From Halorubrum sp. CSM-61 (GTDB lineage Archaea > Halobacteriota > Halobacteria > Halobacteriales > Haloferacaceae), in NCBI RefSeq assembly GCF_003781945.1, contig NZ_RJJW01000007.1, forward strand, positions 1 through 64,000: DNA of 64,000 bases, given 5' to 3'. Under the pieces are notes generated by a model. It was not told the origin of the DNA, made no database searches, and saw nothing but the letters and a program-made list of their open reading frames with translations. A program made the position numbers and the translations under genes. This document shows, in pieces, positions 26,168-33,341 of the stretch. The stretch's first letter is position 1. Each line of letters begins with the position of its first letter.

Positions 26168-26524
26168 TTACTCCTCTTGAGAGTGGACCGGTCCCATGAA
26201 CGACCAGTGTACTTTGTGGCTTCCGTCGGGATGCGGTTCCTCCGTAACGTGGTAAAGATAAGGTCCGTGTGGGCAGTCGTCGCAACCGTCCGCACACCGG
26301 AACTGTTTCACCACTTCTGTGTATCCCTCGTGTTCTTTTACGCGGAGGATATCGTCATTAGCTTCTGCGTTGATGGGGAGCTCCGCCTCTCCGTGGAAAT
26401 GGAGCAATTCCTGGGCGTGGACGATCGCTTTCCGAAGCTCTTCCGGCGTACAATTGGTGAGTGCGTCGATTACTTCCCGGGGAAGTCCTTCCGGGGGTGT
26501 CGGACGCTCCGAAGAACGTGTCAT
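26168..26524 (-). CDS. Small cysteine-containing protein, paralogue of 27844-28296
   Basis: A 118-residue acidic protein. Residues ~10-50 form a helical N-terminal part (PPEGLPREVIDALTNC and PEELRKAIVHAQELLHF). A cysteine/histidine cluster, FRCADGCDDCPHGPY, follows near 85-98. The C-terminal motif LYHVTEEPHPDGSHKVHW corresponds to [18 protein letters not shown] in the paralogue at 27844-28296. The cysteines could bind a metal. The start is the ATG at 26524, and an AT-rich region lies just upstream. It may belong with the Trk/Usp genes, because its paralogue starts the second Usp-TrkA-TrkH block. Function is unknown. Confidence 0.65.
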   Translation of the reverse strand: MTRSSERPTPPEGLPREVIDALTNCTPEELRKAIVHAQELLHFHGEAELPINAEANDDILRVKEHEGYTEVVKQFRCADGCDDCPHGPYLYHVTEEPHPDGSHKVHWSFMGPVHSQEE

Positions 26525-26761: not shown

Positions 26762-27505
26762 TCAGTCACCAGTAAACGCTTCGAGCGTCTCTTCAGTAAC
26801 ACCTGACCGGGAATGAATTGTGACGAAATCGTTCTCCTTCATCACCGTCTCTCCAGTTGGCGTTATTGTTCCCTCGTCGCGGTTGATCCGGACGACCAAC
26901 ACATCCGGCGAAATAAGTTCCTCCTCGTTTGCTTCTTGGAGCGTTCTCCCGGCGATAGGTGCCTTTTTTCTGACAATAACTTCGACGACATCGGCGTCGC
27001 CAGCGAGACCTGCGACCCCGGTAACTGGTGAGGCTACCTCTTCGTCCCGAGGCCCGAATGGAGCATAGGGACGGAAATACTCTCGGTGGACCAGATCCTC
27101 GTCGTCGATCTCAATACCGAGCGAAATAATTCCTTGAGCGATTCGCGTGAGATCATCAGTATCTGTTCCGACGACCGTAATTCGGAGATCGCCTTTCCCG
27201 GACATGATCTCCCGGACGTTAATCACGCCCGGAATATCGAGGACGCGCTGTGCCATCTCTTTTCGGTCACGGTTTCCCGTACTGCAGACGTAATGATTGG
27301 TCAGCCGCCCGCCTACCTTTTGATAATTAACGTCGGCATGGTATCCTCGAATAACTCCTTCCTCTTCGAGCCGCCTAATCCGATTTCGGACTGTCGGAGC
27401 TGAGACATCGACTTTCTCCGCGATATCCGGAGCGGACGTGTGTCGGGCTTCCTCGGTCAGATAATACAGGATCTGTTCGTCGATCGTATCGATCTGAAGA
27501 GACAT
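26762..27505 (-). CDS. Lrp/AsnC-type regulator with C-terminal TrkA_C (RCK_C) domain
   Basis: A 247-residue protein. Residues 1-60 are an Lrp-type winged helix (IDTIDEQILYYLTEEARHTS and APTVRNRIRRLEEEGVIRGY). Residues ~65-140 are an AsnC/RAM-like ligand-binding domain (VREIMSGKGDLRITVVGTD). Residues ~170-245 form a TrkA_C/RCK_C domain with ITPTGETVMKENDFVTIHS, the same motif order as in the TrkA proteins here. The fusion links a DNA-binding switch to the ligand-sensing module of K+ channel regulators, making it a strong candidate controller of the surrounding Trk/Usp genes. It is divergent from the block starting at 27844. Confidence 0.9.
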   Translation of the reverse strand: MSLQIDTIDEQILYYLTEEARHTSAPDIAEKVDVSAPTVRNRIRRLEEEGVIRGYHADVNYQKVGGRLTNHYVCSTGNRDRKEMAQRVLDIPGVINVREIMSGKGDLRITVVGTDTDDLTRIAQGIISLGIEIDDEDLVHREYFRPYAPFGPRDEEVASPVTGVAGLAGDADVVEVIVRKKAPIAGRTLQEANEEELISPDVLVVRINRDEGTITPTGETVMKENDFVTIHSRSGVTEETLEAFTGD

Positions 27506-27843
27506 ATTTATACGCTGAAATTGGCTCCGTAGGCCCTTTTAAATTATCGTTTGGTATTTGTTCTATTCTTGAGTTGCTGTCTCTGCCAGCCGGTGGCTGA
27601 CCTGCTGAAAACGACGCTCAATACGTGATAGACACCCAGAAAACAAAGATAAACGATAAGAAAGTGAATAGGGAATAAATTACGGAATCGTTGGCTGATA
27701 CGGCAGATTTTTATCTTACCGTAATATGCGTTCGTACACGATGTTCACCCACGGTGCACCAGCGGCAAATACGAATCACGTCTCGAATGGAGTGCCCCGC
27801 GATCCGGATGGCCCTGATGCTGCCTCGAGACGGAAGTGAGACC
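27506..27843. other. Divergent intergenic region between the Lrp-TrkA_C gene and the second Trk/Usp block
   Basis: 338 bp without a convincing gene. It is AT-rich, with several TATA-like strings (atttatac next to the Lrp start; gatttttatc about 130 nt before 27844). It would hold the two divergent promoters and any operator of the Lrp-type regulator. I could not identify a clear palindrome. Confidence 0.4.
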
Positions 27844-28296
27844 ATGAGTAACACCAATGAGGATCCGACGCCACCGGACGATCTCCCCCAGGCGCTGATT
27901 CAACGGATCGATCCGTTGGAACTCCCCGAGTTGAAATCGCTCCTTTCGTACATCGAGAAGCGCATCGAATCACTTCGAACGCCAATCGAAGCGGAGATCG
28001 AAGCAGACGCCGCCGGGGAAGTCCTCAACATCGAGAACCATGGAGCGTACGCACTCGTGCGACAGCACCCTCCGGATCCGGATGGTCCAGGCGTGAATAC
28101 GGATATTACGTCACTGTACCACGTTCGACGTGAACCGCACTACGACGGGACGGAATCGCTGTATTGGGCGTATCTTGGGGATCTCCATAACGCGGCGGAG
28201 GCACGGTGTGAAAGCTGTGGACAGACATTCGACCGTGGGGTAGACATATGTCCGAATTGCGGGAGTGACGACGTCGATACTGGGACGGAGGAATAA
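27844..28296 (+). CDS. Small protein with C-terminal zinc ribbon, paralogue of 26168-26524
   Basis: A 150-residue acidic protein. The helical N-terminal half ([18 protein letters not shown], then a leucine-rich helix) and the [14 protein letters not shown] segment match the gene at 26168-26524. Unlike that paralogue it ends with a full zinc ribbon: [10 protein letters not shown] and [11 protein letters not shown]. The ATG at 27844 is chosen because the paralogous alignment begins there. Two nucleotides separate its stop from the next gene (UspA), so it heads an operon: this protein, UspA, UspA, TrkA, TrkH. It may be a regulatory adaptor; no enzyme motif is present. Confidence 0.75.
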
Positions 28297-28298
28297 TC

Positions 28299-28718
28299 AT
28301 GCATCAATTACTGACTGGCCATCTCGTCGTCCCGGTCGTAAACGAGGAGGATGCGCGAGCCACAGCACGCACTCTCAGCGCCTACGAGTACGGTCAGGTA
28401 ACTGTCGTTCACGTTGTTGAGAAGGGTGAAGGAGTTCCTGACAAGCTCCCGATTGAACAGGCAGAACAACGAGCTGCGGACGCGTTCGCTGCGTTTCGAG
28501 GTTTCATCCCGGAGGCAGATGAGGAAATTGTCTATCGGAGAGATGTGGTTGAGGCCATCATCGATGTCACGGCGGATGTGGACGCCAGCGCGATCGCGTT
28601 TCGCCCCCGAGGTGGGAGCCGGATCGTCCAGTTCCTCTCCGGCGATGTCGCTCTCAAGCTGGTCACGGACGCAGATAGGCCGGTTATCGCACTTCCAGAG
28701 GAGGACGGAAGCGAATGA
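28299..28718 (+). CDS. Universal stress protein (UspA) family
   Basis: A 139-residue single-domain Usp, a close paralogue of the one at 20446-20886. Shared elements are [28 protein letters not shown] and [19 protein letters not shown], ending in the strand [13 protein letters not shown]. The glycine loop is atypical, as in its paralogue. It overlaps the next uspA by 4 nt (ATGA). The repeated pairing of this Usp subtype with Trk genes in two separate blocks argues that it is a functional partner of K+ uptake. Confidence 0.88.
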
Positions 28719-29173
28719 CGGTTGACATCATGATGTTCTCCGGAAGAGGTCCCCATGTGCCGGCCGCGGCTCAGCGGGCTGTCGAATTCGTGTCCGCAGC
28801 CGACGACGAGTCGTCACTAGCGTTGCTCAACGTCCAGTCTCCGGAGACGGGTAGTGGCGAGGATAGTTCTCACACCGATCGTGGTGGAGCAGTGATCAAG
28901 GAGTTATCCGAACGCGCTGGAATCAGATACATGACATATGATGCCGAGATCAGAGTTGTAGGGGATACCGAACAGGCGATCATCGACGCGGCTGAAGAAT
29001 ACGATACGATCTGTGTCGGAGCCACCCGATCCGGGACGATCTCTCAGGTGCTATTCGGATCGCTCCCGGAGACGGTCGGTGTAGAAATGGATCGGACCAT
29101 CGTGATGGCTCGTGGCCCGGAGGAATCGGCGATGTCAATCCGTGAACCGCTGCTGCGGCGACTGGAGGTGTGA
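28715..29173 (+). CDS. Universal stress protein (UspA) family, ATP-loop type
   Basis: A 152-residue Usp domain. The C-terminal loop [15 protein letters not shown] fits the canonical G-2x-G-9x-GS nucleotide-binding pattern, unlike its upstream neighbour, so this one probably binds ATP. The N-terminal strand ([10 protein letters not shown]) lacks the usual aspartate after the first strand. It corresponds in arrangement to the second Usp domain of the permease at 20883-23165. It overlaps the upstream uspA by 4 nt and ends 5 bp before trkA copy 3. Confidence 0.82.
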
Positions 29174-29178
29174 TCAGC

Positions 29179-29889
29179 ATGTACATTATCATCATCGGGG
29201 CGGGCGATATCGGAACCCCGCTCATCGAAATCGCAACGAGAACCGGATACGAAGTCGTCGTCATCGAAAGAGACGCCGCGAGAGCAGACCAGGTCGCCAG
29301 CGAATTCGACTGTATGGTCATCAACGCTGACGCGACAGTCAAAGAGACGTTGGAAGACGCGGGGGCCGACCGCGCAGACGCCATTATTTCGACGACGGAT
29401 CAGGACGCGACCAACATCATGATCTGCTTGCTCGCAAAGGAACTCGATATTCCCGCGATCGTCTCGGTGGTCCACAACCCGGAGCATATGTCCGTCTTTA
29501 GTCAAATCGGCGTCAACACGATGGAGAACCCACAGCGGCTCATTGCGGAATCGCTGTTCCGATCTGTGGATCGCCCGTCGATTGTCGATTACATGCGAGT
29601 CGGAGATGTCGCCGAAGTGTTCGAGATCACGGTCACAGAAGACGCACCGATCGCCGGTCTGACCCTCATGGAAGCAGACGAGAAAGGATTGTTTGACGAA
29701 GACACGCTCGTTGTAGCGATCGAACGAGACGGATCGGAGTCACCCATCACCCCGCGAGGCCAAACTCGCCTCGAAGAAGGAGACCTGCTAACAGTGTACT
29801 CCGGCACTGGAGCAACACCGGAAGTGACCGACATTTTCGGCCATTACGAAGATCACGAGACAAACAACTCGAATGGATTCAGCTTGTGA
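29179..29889 (+). CDS. trkA: TrkA-type regulatory subunit, single unit (copy 3)
   Basis: A 236-residue RCK protein closely similar to copy 2 (23232). The Rossmann domain opens IIGAGDIGTPL with acidic end VVVIERDAA. Shared segments are ISTTDQDATNIM, VVHNPEHMSVF and IGVNTMENPQRL. The C-terminal RCK_C domain includes ITPRGQTRLEEGD. A short extra tail (ETNNSNGFSL) is absent from copy 2. The ATG at 29179 is preferred to a GTG at 29170. It is 96 bp upstream of trkH copy 3, which it probably gates. Confidence 0.94.
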   Translation: MYIIIIGAGDIGTPLIEIATRTGYEVVVIERDAARADQVASEFDCMVINADATVKETLEDAGADRADAIISTTDQDATNIMICLLAKELDIPAIVSVVHNPEHMSVFSQIGVNTMENPQRLIAESLFRSVDRPSIVDYMRVGDVAEVFEITVTEDAPIAGLTLMEADEKGLFDEDTLVVAIERDGSESPITPRGQTRLEEGDLLTVYSGTGATPEVTDIFGHYEDHETNNSNGFSL

Positions 29890-29985
29890 GCAATCTGTTG
29901 GTCGCGCACCATCCATGACATCACTCATGCTTGGACGACAGTCACTTCGCACCCACTTAGCCAACCTGACAGCCTCTCGATTATC

Positions 29986-31542
29986 ATGAGCCTGATCGTA
30001 AACAGACGAACTGTCGGCCGTGACGTCGGTCGCATCGTGCAAGCCATCTCGTTGATGATGGTGATTTCTATCGTCGTCGCGGCAGTAAACGGCGAATTCT
30101 TTGCAATTCCGGCTTTTGTCGTCTCTGCCTTCATTATGGCCGGTATCGGGAGTGCGCTCGTCTGGCGCTATCAAGACGCTGAGCCGCCGGAGAAACGCGA
30201 GGCGATGGTTACTGCAGCCACTGCCTGGGCGCTCGTCGGTGTTCTCGGAAGCCTCCCTTTCCTCTTCATCGCGTGGACAATCCAGCTCGATCCGTTGCCG
30301 ATCTGGATGAACACACCGGCGATGGACGAGACGACAGCGGTGTTTCTGAACCCGCTCGATGCAGTCTTCGAGAGCATGAGCGGGTTCACTGGAACAGGCC
30401 TGACGGTGGCTGCCGTCGAAGAAAAACTGCCCCGGTCACTACACTGGTGGCGGTCGTTCATCGAGTGGATCGGTGGTGTCGGCGTTATTGTTCTGACCGT
30501 GGCTATTCTTCATCGGGGTGGTAGTGGCGGCTCATACACACTCTATGAGAGCGAGGCTCGCTCAGAGAAAATCCATCCGAGCATCGTAACCACCGTCCAG
30601 GAGATATGGAAGATCTTCGTCGGCCTGACGCTTGCCTCGATCGCCCTGTTCCTGCTGGCTGGCATGCCGTTGTGGGACGCCATCAATCACGGGATGACCG
30701 GGATCGCCACAGGCGGGTTCTCCGTTCACGCTGCATCGATCGGATTCTACGACAGCCCGTTGATCGAGTACGTGACTGTGCCTATCATGATCGCGGGAAG
30801 CATCGCGTTCCCTATCCACTATCTGATATTCAAAGGCGAGGTACGAACTCTGTACAGCGACCTGCAGACGCGGTGGGTGTTCATCTGGTTCGCTGTCGGC
30901 TCATTCGTTCTCACGGGCATTCTACACGCCAACGGCCAGTACGCGACGCTCGAAGAGACGTTCAGGGTTGCGCTGTTCCAGTTCGTCTCCGCCACCTCGA
31001 ACACCGGCTTTGGCAGCGCGGCAGTCGGCGGTGGTACAGAGCAGGTCTGGAGTGCTGGGGCGACCCTGTGGACCTGTCTCGGAATGCTCACCGGTGCTGC
31101 AGCGGGTTCGACAGTTAGCGGTCTCAAACTCATTCGCGTGATAACGTTGATCAAGGGGACCATCTGGCAGATTCAGGACGTGTTCCGTCCACAAACTGCA
31201 ATCAGGTATCTCCAGATCGGCGATCGACGTCTCAGTGAAGAGCAGGCCGAACGTGAGTACACAGAAGCGACCGTGGTGTTCATCCTTTGGATTACGTTCC
31301 TCGTAATCGGTGTTGCGGTACTTCTCCGTGTGCTCTCACCGGCTCATCCGCTTGAGTACGTCATTTTTGACGTTATGAGCGCACAGAGCAACGTCGGCCT
31401 CAGTAGCGGTATCACCGGACCAGACATGCCGGATACTGCAAAAGCGATGTTGATACTCAATATGTGGGTCGGACGGCTTGAGATCATTCCCATAGCGGTG
31501 CTAATTGGATCGGTCCTGCAGCGACTGAATCTATATCGCTAA
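29986..31542 (+). CDS. trkH: Potassium channel/transporter subunit TrkH (copy 3)
   Basis: A 518-residue TrkH. Pore loops are SMSGFTGTGLT (~129), GIATGGFSV (~239), ATSNTGFGS (~335) and AQSNVGLSSG (~465). The intramembrane loop reads GAAAGSTVSGLKLIR, with serine where copies 1 and 2 have glycine. The YESEARSEKIHPS segment matches YQSEAREQKIHPS of copy 2, confirming their close relationship. It completes the second block (small zinc-ribbon protein, UspA, UspA, TrkA, TrkH). Three TrkH genes in 13 kb imply channels tuned to different K+ or osmotic conditions. Confidence 0.94.
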   Translation: MSLIVNRRTVGRDVGRIVQAISLMMVISIVVAAVNGEFFAIPAFVVSAFIMAGIGSALVWRYQDAEPPEKREAMVTAATAWALVGVLGSLPFLFIAWTIQLDPLPIWMNTPAMDETTAVFLNPLDAVFESMSGFTGTGLTVAAVEEKLPRSLHWWRSFIEWIGGVGVIVLTVAILHRGGSGGSYTLYESEARSEKIHPSIVTTVQEIWKIFVGLTLASIALFLLAGMPLWDAINHGMTGIATGGFSVHAASIGFYDSPLIEYVTVPIMIAGSIAFPIHYLIFKGEVRTLYSDLQTRWVFIWFAVGSFVLTGILHANGQYATLEETFRVALFQFVSATSNTGFGSAAVGGGTEQVWSAGATLWTCLGMLTGAAAGSTVSGLKLIRVITLIKGTIWQIQDVFRPQTAIRYLQIGDRRLSEEQAEREYTEATVVFILWITFLVIGVAVLLRVLSPAHPLEYVIFDVMSAQSNVGLSSGITGPDMPDTAKAMLILNMWVGRLEIIPIAVLIGSVLQRLNLYR

Positions 31543-31700: not shown

Positions 31701-33341
31701 ATGGTTTCAACAGAGCAGCGCAGTTCTATTGGTCCACTTAATAGTGAACATCCTCGAATGAGCTCTTTGTGCGAAGCGTACCAGCTCGGGATCACCATCC
31801 GGAATAAACTCAAAGAAACCGGTCTCGTCACCGTGTTCGAAAATCTCGATCATTCGACAGACGCGGTCGAGGACGGGTATCCAGCGTGGCATCCTGCACC
31901 ACTCTCGTTTCGCGCGATGATCCTCTCATTCGTGTTCATGGAGATCACTGGGGATTCGTACGCTGACTTCACTCGACGACTCACCCGGCAACCGGAAGTG
32001 GTGACTATCCTCGGTTTTAGCCGAGTGCCCGACGAATCAGCGTTCTCGCGGGCGTGGCGAAATCGATTCGACGACGCAACACACGAATACATCCACGCTG
32101 CTGCCCACTTCGTCATCAAGGAAGTCCACGATCGCGACATCTCAGCGCCGGAGGTGCGGCCTAAGGCAGAGATCGTCGACGATGAGCAAGAAGCCGCAGA
32201 CCCAGTAGAAGACAAATCCTTCTCACAGGAGGAGATCATCCAGACAACGCGCCTCGCGCGTGATCACGCTTTTGGGCACTTCGACTCTGGTCGGGCGTCG
32301 AACGCCTCGTACGAGGACACACAATTCTTTGAGCTACAGACGTTCATGGGGATGGTCCACTGTGGAACTGCGCAGGGAGCGACTCGTTTTCAATATCGCC
32401 ATGGCGAAGAGTACAGCCCCCATGGTGATACCCACCTCCGCGCCGTCAAGCAGTTCGATCCTGACGAGCTCGTCGACGGCTTCAACGAGACAACGGATCG
32501 CTTGCTTTCCGTGATCGCTTCTGAATCCTCATTCCGCCGTCCAGTCACTGCGGCGATCGACATCACCACCATTCCCTACTACGGAGAGGTCGAAGGAATG
32601 CCGATGGTCAGCGGGACGAAGGATAGAGACGGTCGAGCGTTCAAATTTGCGACGCTTTCGATCATCGGGCAGAACATCCCGCTCGTTCTGGCGGTTGAGC
32701 CGGTCCGTGAGAGTTCCGAGTGGGATGAGAACCCTTCGAATCAGATCCATCGTACTGTGCGACGGCTCGTTCGACGAGCGAAAGAGCATGTTCCAATCGA
32801 GACAGTACTGTGTGATCGAGAGTTTGACTCGAGACAAGTGTTCCAGACACTCTCAAACCTCGATGTGAACTACCTCATACCCAAGCGGATCTCCAGCTCC
32901 GAACAGGATGTACTCGAACAAATGGTGGAAGACGACCAAGAGGTGGCTGTTGAATCGGCTTCTGTCCATGTGGAATCTGGATCGCATCCAATGCGGCTCC
33001 TGTACGTGCCGTCGACGAGTGGGGAGGGAACGGCTGTCTTCGCGACGAATCTTCGAGTCGGTCCCGAGGAAGCCGAGACATTCTGTCAGCGCTACAGCCG
33101 CCGGTGGCAGATCGAGAGTGAGTACAAATCGATCAAAGGTGATTTTCTCGCCAAGACCTCCTCGAAAGACTACCGGGTTCGATTGTTCTACTTCGTGTTC
33201 GCGGTCCTCTTGTACAATATCTGGCGGCTCACCGACTTTCTACTGAAAGCGGGTGTGGGAGGTGAAATGGACTACGCACCCGTGTTAACTGCGGGTGAGT
33301 GTGTCGAACTCGTTGCCTCGTCGTTGATCCCGCACGACTAA
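31701..33341 (+). CDS. IS4-type DDE transposase
   Basis: A 546-residue intact transposase, distinct from the 558-residue pair at 1182 and 59518 but of the same general family. The triad is readable: D near 286 (AIDITTIPYYG), D near 371 (LCDREFDS) and E near 471. The last lies in RYSRRWQIESEYKSIK, fitting Y-(2)-R-(3)-E-(6)-K. It lies within the 24-kb element between trkH copy 3 and the phosphate transporter. It may be a later insertion or the source of some rearrangements. No target duplication was found around it. Confidence 0.9.
   Translation: MVSTEQRSSIGPLNSEHPRMSSLCEAYQLGITIRNKLKETGLVTVFENLDHSTDAVEDGYPAWHPAPLSFRAMILSFVFMEITGDSYADFTRRLTRQPEVVTILGFSRVPDESAFSRAWRNRFDDATHEYIHAAAHFVIKEVHDRDISAPEVRPKAEIVDDEQEAADPVEDKSFSQEEIIQTTRLARDHAFGHFDSGRASNASYEDTQFFELQTFMGMVHCGTAQGATRFQYRHGEEYSPHGDTHLRAVKQFDPDELVDGFNETTDRLLSVIASESSFRRPVTAAIDITTIPYYGEVEGMPMVSGTKDRDGRAFKFATLSIIGQNIPLVLAVEPVRESSEWDENPSNQIHRTVRRLVRRAKEHVPIETVLCDREFDSRQVFQTLSNLDVNYLIPKRISSSEQDVLEQMVEDDQEVAVESASVHVESGSHPMRLLYVPSTSGEGTAVFATNLRVGPEEAETFCQRYSRRWQIESEYKSIKGDFLAKTSSKDYRVRLFYFVFAVLLYNIWRLTDFLLKAGVGGEMDYAPVLTAGECVELVASSLIPHD

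Follow-up and report, generated by a model that had tools for sequence, protein, structure and literature searches.

The window, i.e. the whole stretch of 64,000 nucleotides analysed here (Halorubrum sp. CSM-61, contig NZ_RJJW01000007.1), contains the gene of an Lrp-type regulator with a C-terminal RCK_C domain. The gene is located between two blocks of Trk and universal stress protein (Usp) genes. It is divergent from the right-hand block, a DUF-Usp-Usp-TrkA-TrkH cluster at 27844-31542, and 338 bp separate the start codons. The ORF map and the Pfam assignments thereby agree with the location given in an earlier note on this DNA. The genes are as follows:

26762..27505, minus strand: Lrp-RCK_C regulator of 247 aa (Pfam, AlphaFold2, VIA-align and the 49-sequence alignment A1)
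27844..28296, plus strand: first gene of the operon, a small protein of no known family with C-terminal zinc-ribbon-like CxxC pairs (profile scan, translation)
28299..28718, plus strand: universal stress protein (Pfam, 6.4e-8)
28715..29173, plus strand: universal stress protein (Pfam, 3.9e-7)
29170..29889, plus strand: TrkA with one RCK unit, TrkA_N + TrkA_C (Pfam)
29986..31542, plus strand: TrkH, the potassium-uptake membrane subunit (Pfam, 1.5e-72)

The regulator belongs to the Lrp/AsnC family, and within it to the haloarchaeal Lrp-TrkA_C proteins, in which wHTH and RAM are followed by one C-terminal TrkA_C domain. Its domain map comprises the wHTH (residues ~5-53), the RAM fold (67-144), a low-confidence linker (~145-170) and the RCK_C domain (~164/171-247). 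For the wHTH, HTH_24 (1.2e-13) and HTH_AsnC-type (1.7e-9) match residues 5-53, both above the curated Pfam cut-offs. The TrkA_C match covers residues 173-230 (5e-9; 36.4 bits against a Pfam cut-off of 27). Sequence alone gives a weak RAM match: AsnC_trans_reg scores 15.3 bits, under its cut-off of 25. When the predicted structure is compared to solved ones, however, residues 67-144 do form a RAM fold (Z ~12 to RAM-only proteins, VIA-align), so that the regulator appears to possess a diverged RAM. In the same type of comparison, residues 4-147 match Lrp/AsnC proteins as a whole.

The structural model was obtained with AlphaFold2, using 49 homologues from the fetched loci as input alignment. It reached a mean pLDDT of 80.3 and a pTM of 0.50, with a linker at 155-169 below pLDDT 50; the individual folds are therefore reliable and the relative placement of the domains is not. 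Residues ~164-247 show the RCK_C fold, with Z ~10-11 to the RCK_C of TrkA, KhtT and MthK (VIA-align), 11.4 to KhtT with c-di-AMP (7ahm) and 9.9 to 4ys2 (RCK_C with c-di-AMP). Foldseek ranks Lrp/AsnC structures on top, and BusR chains come next. The fusion of an Lrp HTH, a RAM-like domain and an RCK_C domain, as read from the sequence in the earlier note, is thus confirmed, by Pfam for the HTH and TrkA_C and by the predicted structure for the RAM, while the RCK_C fold at ~164-247 is recovered by AlphaFold2 and VIA-align with Z ~11.

The Lrp-TrkA_C fusion as such is already known (2014, 2021); new here are a specific candidate target operon and a predicted operator. In 2014, Trh2 (VNG1285G) from Halobacterium salinarum NRC-1 was presented as an FFRP that carries a TrkA-C domain; K+/NAD+ was proposed as its effector, and its RAM was considered likely non-functional (PMC4236453). 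Trh2 has neither targets nor motif in common with the other FFRPs, and in the accessible part of that paper a Trk regulon is not reported from the ChIP and PWM work (PMC4236453). Haloferax mediterranei contains two Lrp-TrkA_C proteins (WP_004056739.1 and WP_004058688.1), and in a 2021 survey, Lrps with HTH and TrkA_C were counted in most haloarchaeal families (PMC8229911). In domain order the regulator is like Trh2 and the H. mediterranei pair, with an Lrp/AsnC HTH followed by TrkA_C. Whereas an operator is predicted for the regulator of the window, the accessible parts of both papers describe no operator beside a Trk operon for these proteins (PMC4236453, PMC8229911).

Parts of the regulator can also be recognized in other protein groups. 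Unfused haloarchaeal Lrps are homologous in wHTH and RAM (~40-49% identical to the N-terminal part), but do not contain the RCK_C. Conversely, the single-RCK TrkA/KtrA and CpaA/KhtT share the RCK_C fold (Z 10-11), but they serve as gates or parts of membrane transporters and lack a DNA-binding domain. BusR is a bacterial regulator of osmolyte uptake that combines a wHTH with RCK_C and uses a spaced two-part operator (PMC8517857). The regulator resembles BusR, which is also among its Foldseek matches, in the C-terminal RCK_C, in a two-part site of fixed spacing (predicted here) and in the control of osmolyte uptake (for the regulator, the proposed control of K+ uptake). BusR of Streptococcus agalactiae and Lactococcus lactis, however, is built from a GntR-type wHTH, a coiled coil and RCK_C, where the regulator has Lrp and RAM instead. 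Membership of the BusR family was considered and rejected, as Pfam assigns an AsnC-type wHTH and the model displays a RAM fold in place of the coiled coil. The operator spacing differs as well, i.e. 22 bp in BusR (PMC10243994) versus 31 bp between the half-sites of the predicted site. Of the two proteins, c-di-AMP binding has been shown for BusR only.

The association of the fused gene with Trk genes extends well beyond this genome. Trk genes are found within 4 kb in all 23 close loci and in 32 of the 52 distant ones, compared to 1 of 19 loci with unfused sister Lrps. Fisher's test gives p = 5e-8 when all fused loci are taken and 2e-5 when only the distant ones are, values that overstate independence because the loci are interrelated. 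The proposed link between the regulator and Trk/Usp genes hence proves to be strong and conserved (55/75 fused against 1/19 unfused loci). Close orthologues from many haloarchaeal genera mostly retain the arrangement DUF-Usp-(APC)-Usp-TrkA-TrkH, transcribed divergently from the regulator. Homologues of the 27844-28296 protein adjoin the regulator in 19 of 23 close loci, and in related genomes the Usp/Trk operon usually begins with such a gene. The 27844-28296 protein and the one encoded at 26168-26524 (minus strand) are small paralogues, neither with a Pfam or NCBIfam match above cut-off. In Halorubrum sp. Boch-26 (locus L119, regulator 98% identical), an extra APC-type gene, absent in the window, is inserted between the Usp genes. 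An APC-type gene is also adjacent to 12 of the 19 unfused related Lrps (L142-L160), a second possible pairing of regulator and transporter.

The region between the regulator and the operon contains three predicted elements:

27652..27692, no strand: predicted operator, AACGA-N31-TCGTT (strict form AACGAT-N29-ATCGTT), a conserved dyad of 41 bp
27708..27715, plus strand: TTTTTATC, predicted TATA box for the divergent Usp/Trk operon (from sequence; conserved columns -207 to -203 relative to the lrp start codon)
27538..27545, minus strand: TTTAAAAG, predicted TATA-like element in the promoter of the regulator itself (A-rich, conserved alignment columns -40 to -33 relative to the start codon; placement inferred)

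The dyad is located upstream of the operon TATA box, with 15 bp between the operator edge and the box. With equal spacing and 184-188 bp before the start codon, AACGA-N31-TCGTT is present in 16 of 21 close loci, and shuffled sets contain it at most once per set. An alignment of the intergenic region from 18 close loci, chosen without selection for the motif, gave half-sites that are 89-100% conserved, although the interrelation of these loci means that such conservation does not represent independent events. The conserved columns mostly correspond to the two half-sites, the operon TATA box and the A-rich element of the regulator itself, whereas the spacer and flanks are variable (spacer ~44% mean identity in an alignment anchored on the motif).

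The strict dyad (AACGAW-N29-WTCGTT) occurs as a single copy in the 3.7 Mb genome, at the regulator/operon promoter. Among 15 genomes chosen because the dyad is present, it is found at this locus in all 15 and is the sole copy in 7, including the window genome. If up to two mismatches are allowed, the window yields 51 dyads versus 43.7 expected, which is near chance, and only the exact site is thus meaningful. The intergenic region 27506-27843, which the earlier note had singled out for binding studies, accordingly has a conserved dyad inside it. Control of both Trk blocks by the regulator is not supported, since no exact dyad occurs in the left Trk/Usp block. The dyad is also missing from all 52 distant fused loci and hence cannot be regarded as typical of the whole family; a dyad search in these 52 loci revealed no clear common site. 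A distant subfamily may have a compact TTTCG-N4-CGAAA palindrome near the divergent TATA box, a weak signal in 6 of 9 loci examined upstream of the fused gene (L085, L090, L096, L100, L101, L103, L104, L105 and L107). Such a site would differ from the widely spaced dyad in the close clade.

We consider it fairly likely that the regulator is a dedicated local RCK_C-sensing transcription factor for the operon 27844-31542, probably an activator, acting via the predicted operator. That the regulator itself binds the dyad is inferred; the co-occurrence of lrp gene and dyad is partly due to joint inheritance, and another factor could bind there. During regulation, dimers or higher oligomers would assemble via the RAM fold and probably also through an RCK_C dimer. 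These oligomers would occupy the two-part site at 27652-27692, AACGA-N31-TCGTT, which lies just before the operon TATA box. The RCK_C would then detect an intracellular K+ or osmotic signal, probably a nucleotide like those bound by the RCK_C of Trk/Ktr gates. Binding of this signal would shift the seating of the DNA-binding heads on the two half-sites. By its position alone, an operator just upstream of BRE/TATA suggests activation rather than repression of the operon.

Archaeal repressors usually bind over the TATA box or the start region, and the predicted operator overlaps neither of these in the operon. The main rival reading, rather unlikely although deserving of some weight, is that the same protein and site act as a BusR-like repressor, where a ligand on the RCK_C would strengthen DNA binding and stop K+ uptake at high K+ or second messenger. 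Such a mechanism has its precedent in busA, which is repressed by BusR when c-di-AMP sits on its RCK_C (PMC8517857), and c-di-AMP generally lowers K+ uptake in bacteria (PMC10243994). In addition, a protein spanning the operator could obstruct the TATA region 15 bp away.

The closest relative of the regulator's RCK_C in the genome is that of the TrkA at 29170-29889, which is encoded 2 kb away (50% identity over 76 aa). The ligand may consequently be common to sensor and channel gate, and a response of the regulator to the channel-gating ligand is plausible. The genome has 15 TrkA_C matches, inside and outside the cluster, of which the protein search recovered only the two single-RCK TrkA neighbours. 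c-di-AMP is a possible ligand. A local similarity connects the RCK_C (DVLVVRINRDEGTITPTGET) to 5f29/4ys2 (DIIFVRIIRNNESIVPHGDT), the c-di-AMP-binding RCK_C of a Na+/H+ antiporter-like protein, although this may be largely general TrkA_C sequence. Likewise, the proline P216, invariant in the regulator alignment, may correspond to BusR Pro181 or be general to TrkA_C. It should be added that the KtrA pocket motif is less conserved in the c-di-AMP-binding TrkA of streptococci (PMC12453120). The genome encodes a protein with a DAC (diadenylate cyclase) domain, so c-di-AMP is probably made. In Haloferax volcanii, the diadenylate cyclase DacZ and c-di-AMP have been tied to osmoregulation (PMC6741144). 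A literature search found no direct archaeal c-di-AMP receptor.

Tentatively, the regulator could represent an independently arisen archaeal counterpart of BusR, i.e. a direct receptor of c-di-AMP or another nucleotide linking the signal that gates the channel with transcription of the Trk operon through a spaced two-part operator. If true, this would be one of the first receptors through which c-di-AMP acts on transcription in Archaea. The separate joining of a DNA-binding head to RCK_C in bacteria (BusR) and in archaea would moreover illustrate convergent design.

The role as a local regulator of the Trk operon can be set against a broader one like that of H. salinarum Trh2, in which case the neighbourhood would reflect co-transfer of a K+ island and not control of the adjacent operon. 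The close clade is indeed patchy, with 66-98% identity across many genera, and TrkH is followed by a transposase-like ORF. Genome-wide mapping covered Trh2 among eight FFRPs, which have target sets of their own (PMC4236453). This explanation is nonetheless improbable, as the Trk linkage is also seen in the distant fused members (32/52) and the strict dyad occurs once in the genome, precisely at the regulator/operon promoter. Compact sites are usual for single Lrp dimers, and the 36 bp between the half-site centres exceed these, but ownership of the dyad by another regulator, the Lrp-RCK_C protein being only autoregulatory or uncoupled from the operon, is the least probable of all, because the dyad accompanies the close orthologues and is found in 0/52 distant loci, several of them with a similar operon.

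Haloarchaea maintain a very high internal K+, and no regulator acting on the transcription of their Trk uptake systems emerged from a literature search. The promoter shared with a K+-uptake operon and the conserved two-part site therein provide a likely target that can now be tested. With a defined protein, a predicted site of 41 bp and an operon, the control of Trk and the c-di-AMP receptor both become directly testable questions.

The Lrp-TrkA_C fusion is common in haloarchaea. Full-length homologues of the regulator (~36-91% identity) are present in well over half of 146 genomes of the order, and no internal stop was observed in those among the matches listed. The close clade (66-98% identity) is, in contrast, small and patchy, with genera that include Halorubrum, Halosimplex, Halobellus, Halorussus, Haladaptatus, Haloferax and Halovivax. 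The remaining genomes from the genus of the window possess only homologues of ~43% identity, or none at the threshold used, which together with the patchiness suggests lateral spread. In a tree of the N-terminal part, a single fused clade is rejected (p-AU 0.004, 3 changes needed), and long branches are present. Either the RCK_C has been lost or gained more than once, or the long branches mislead. The ORF directly after TrkH (31701-33341, plus strand) is transposase-like, as judged by eye from its translation, and in combination with the patchy close clade it hints at a mobile K+ island.
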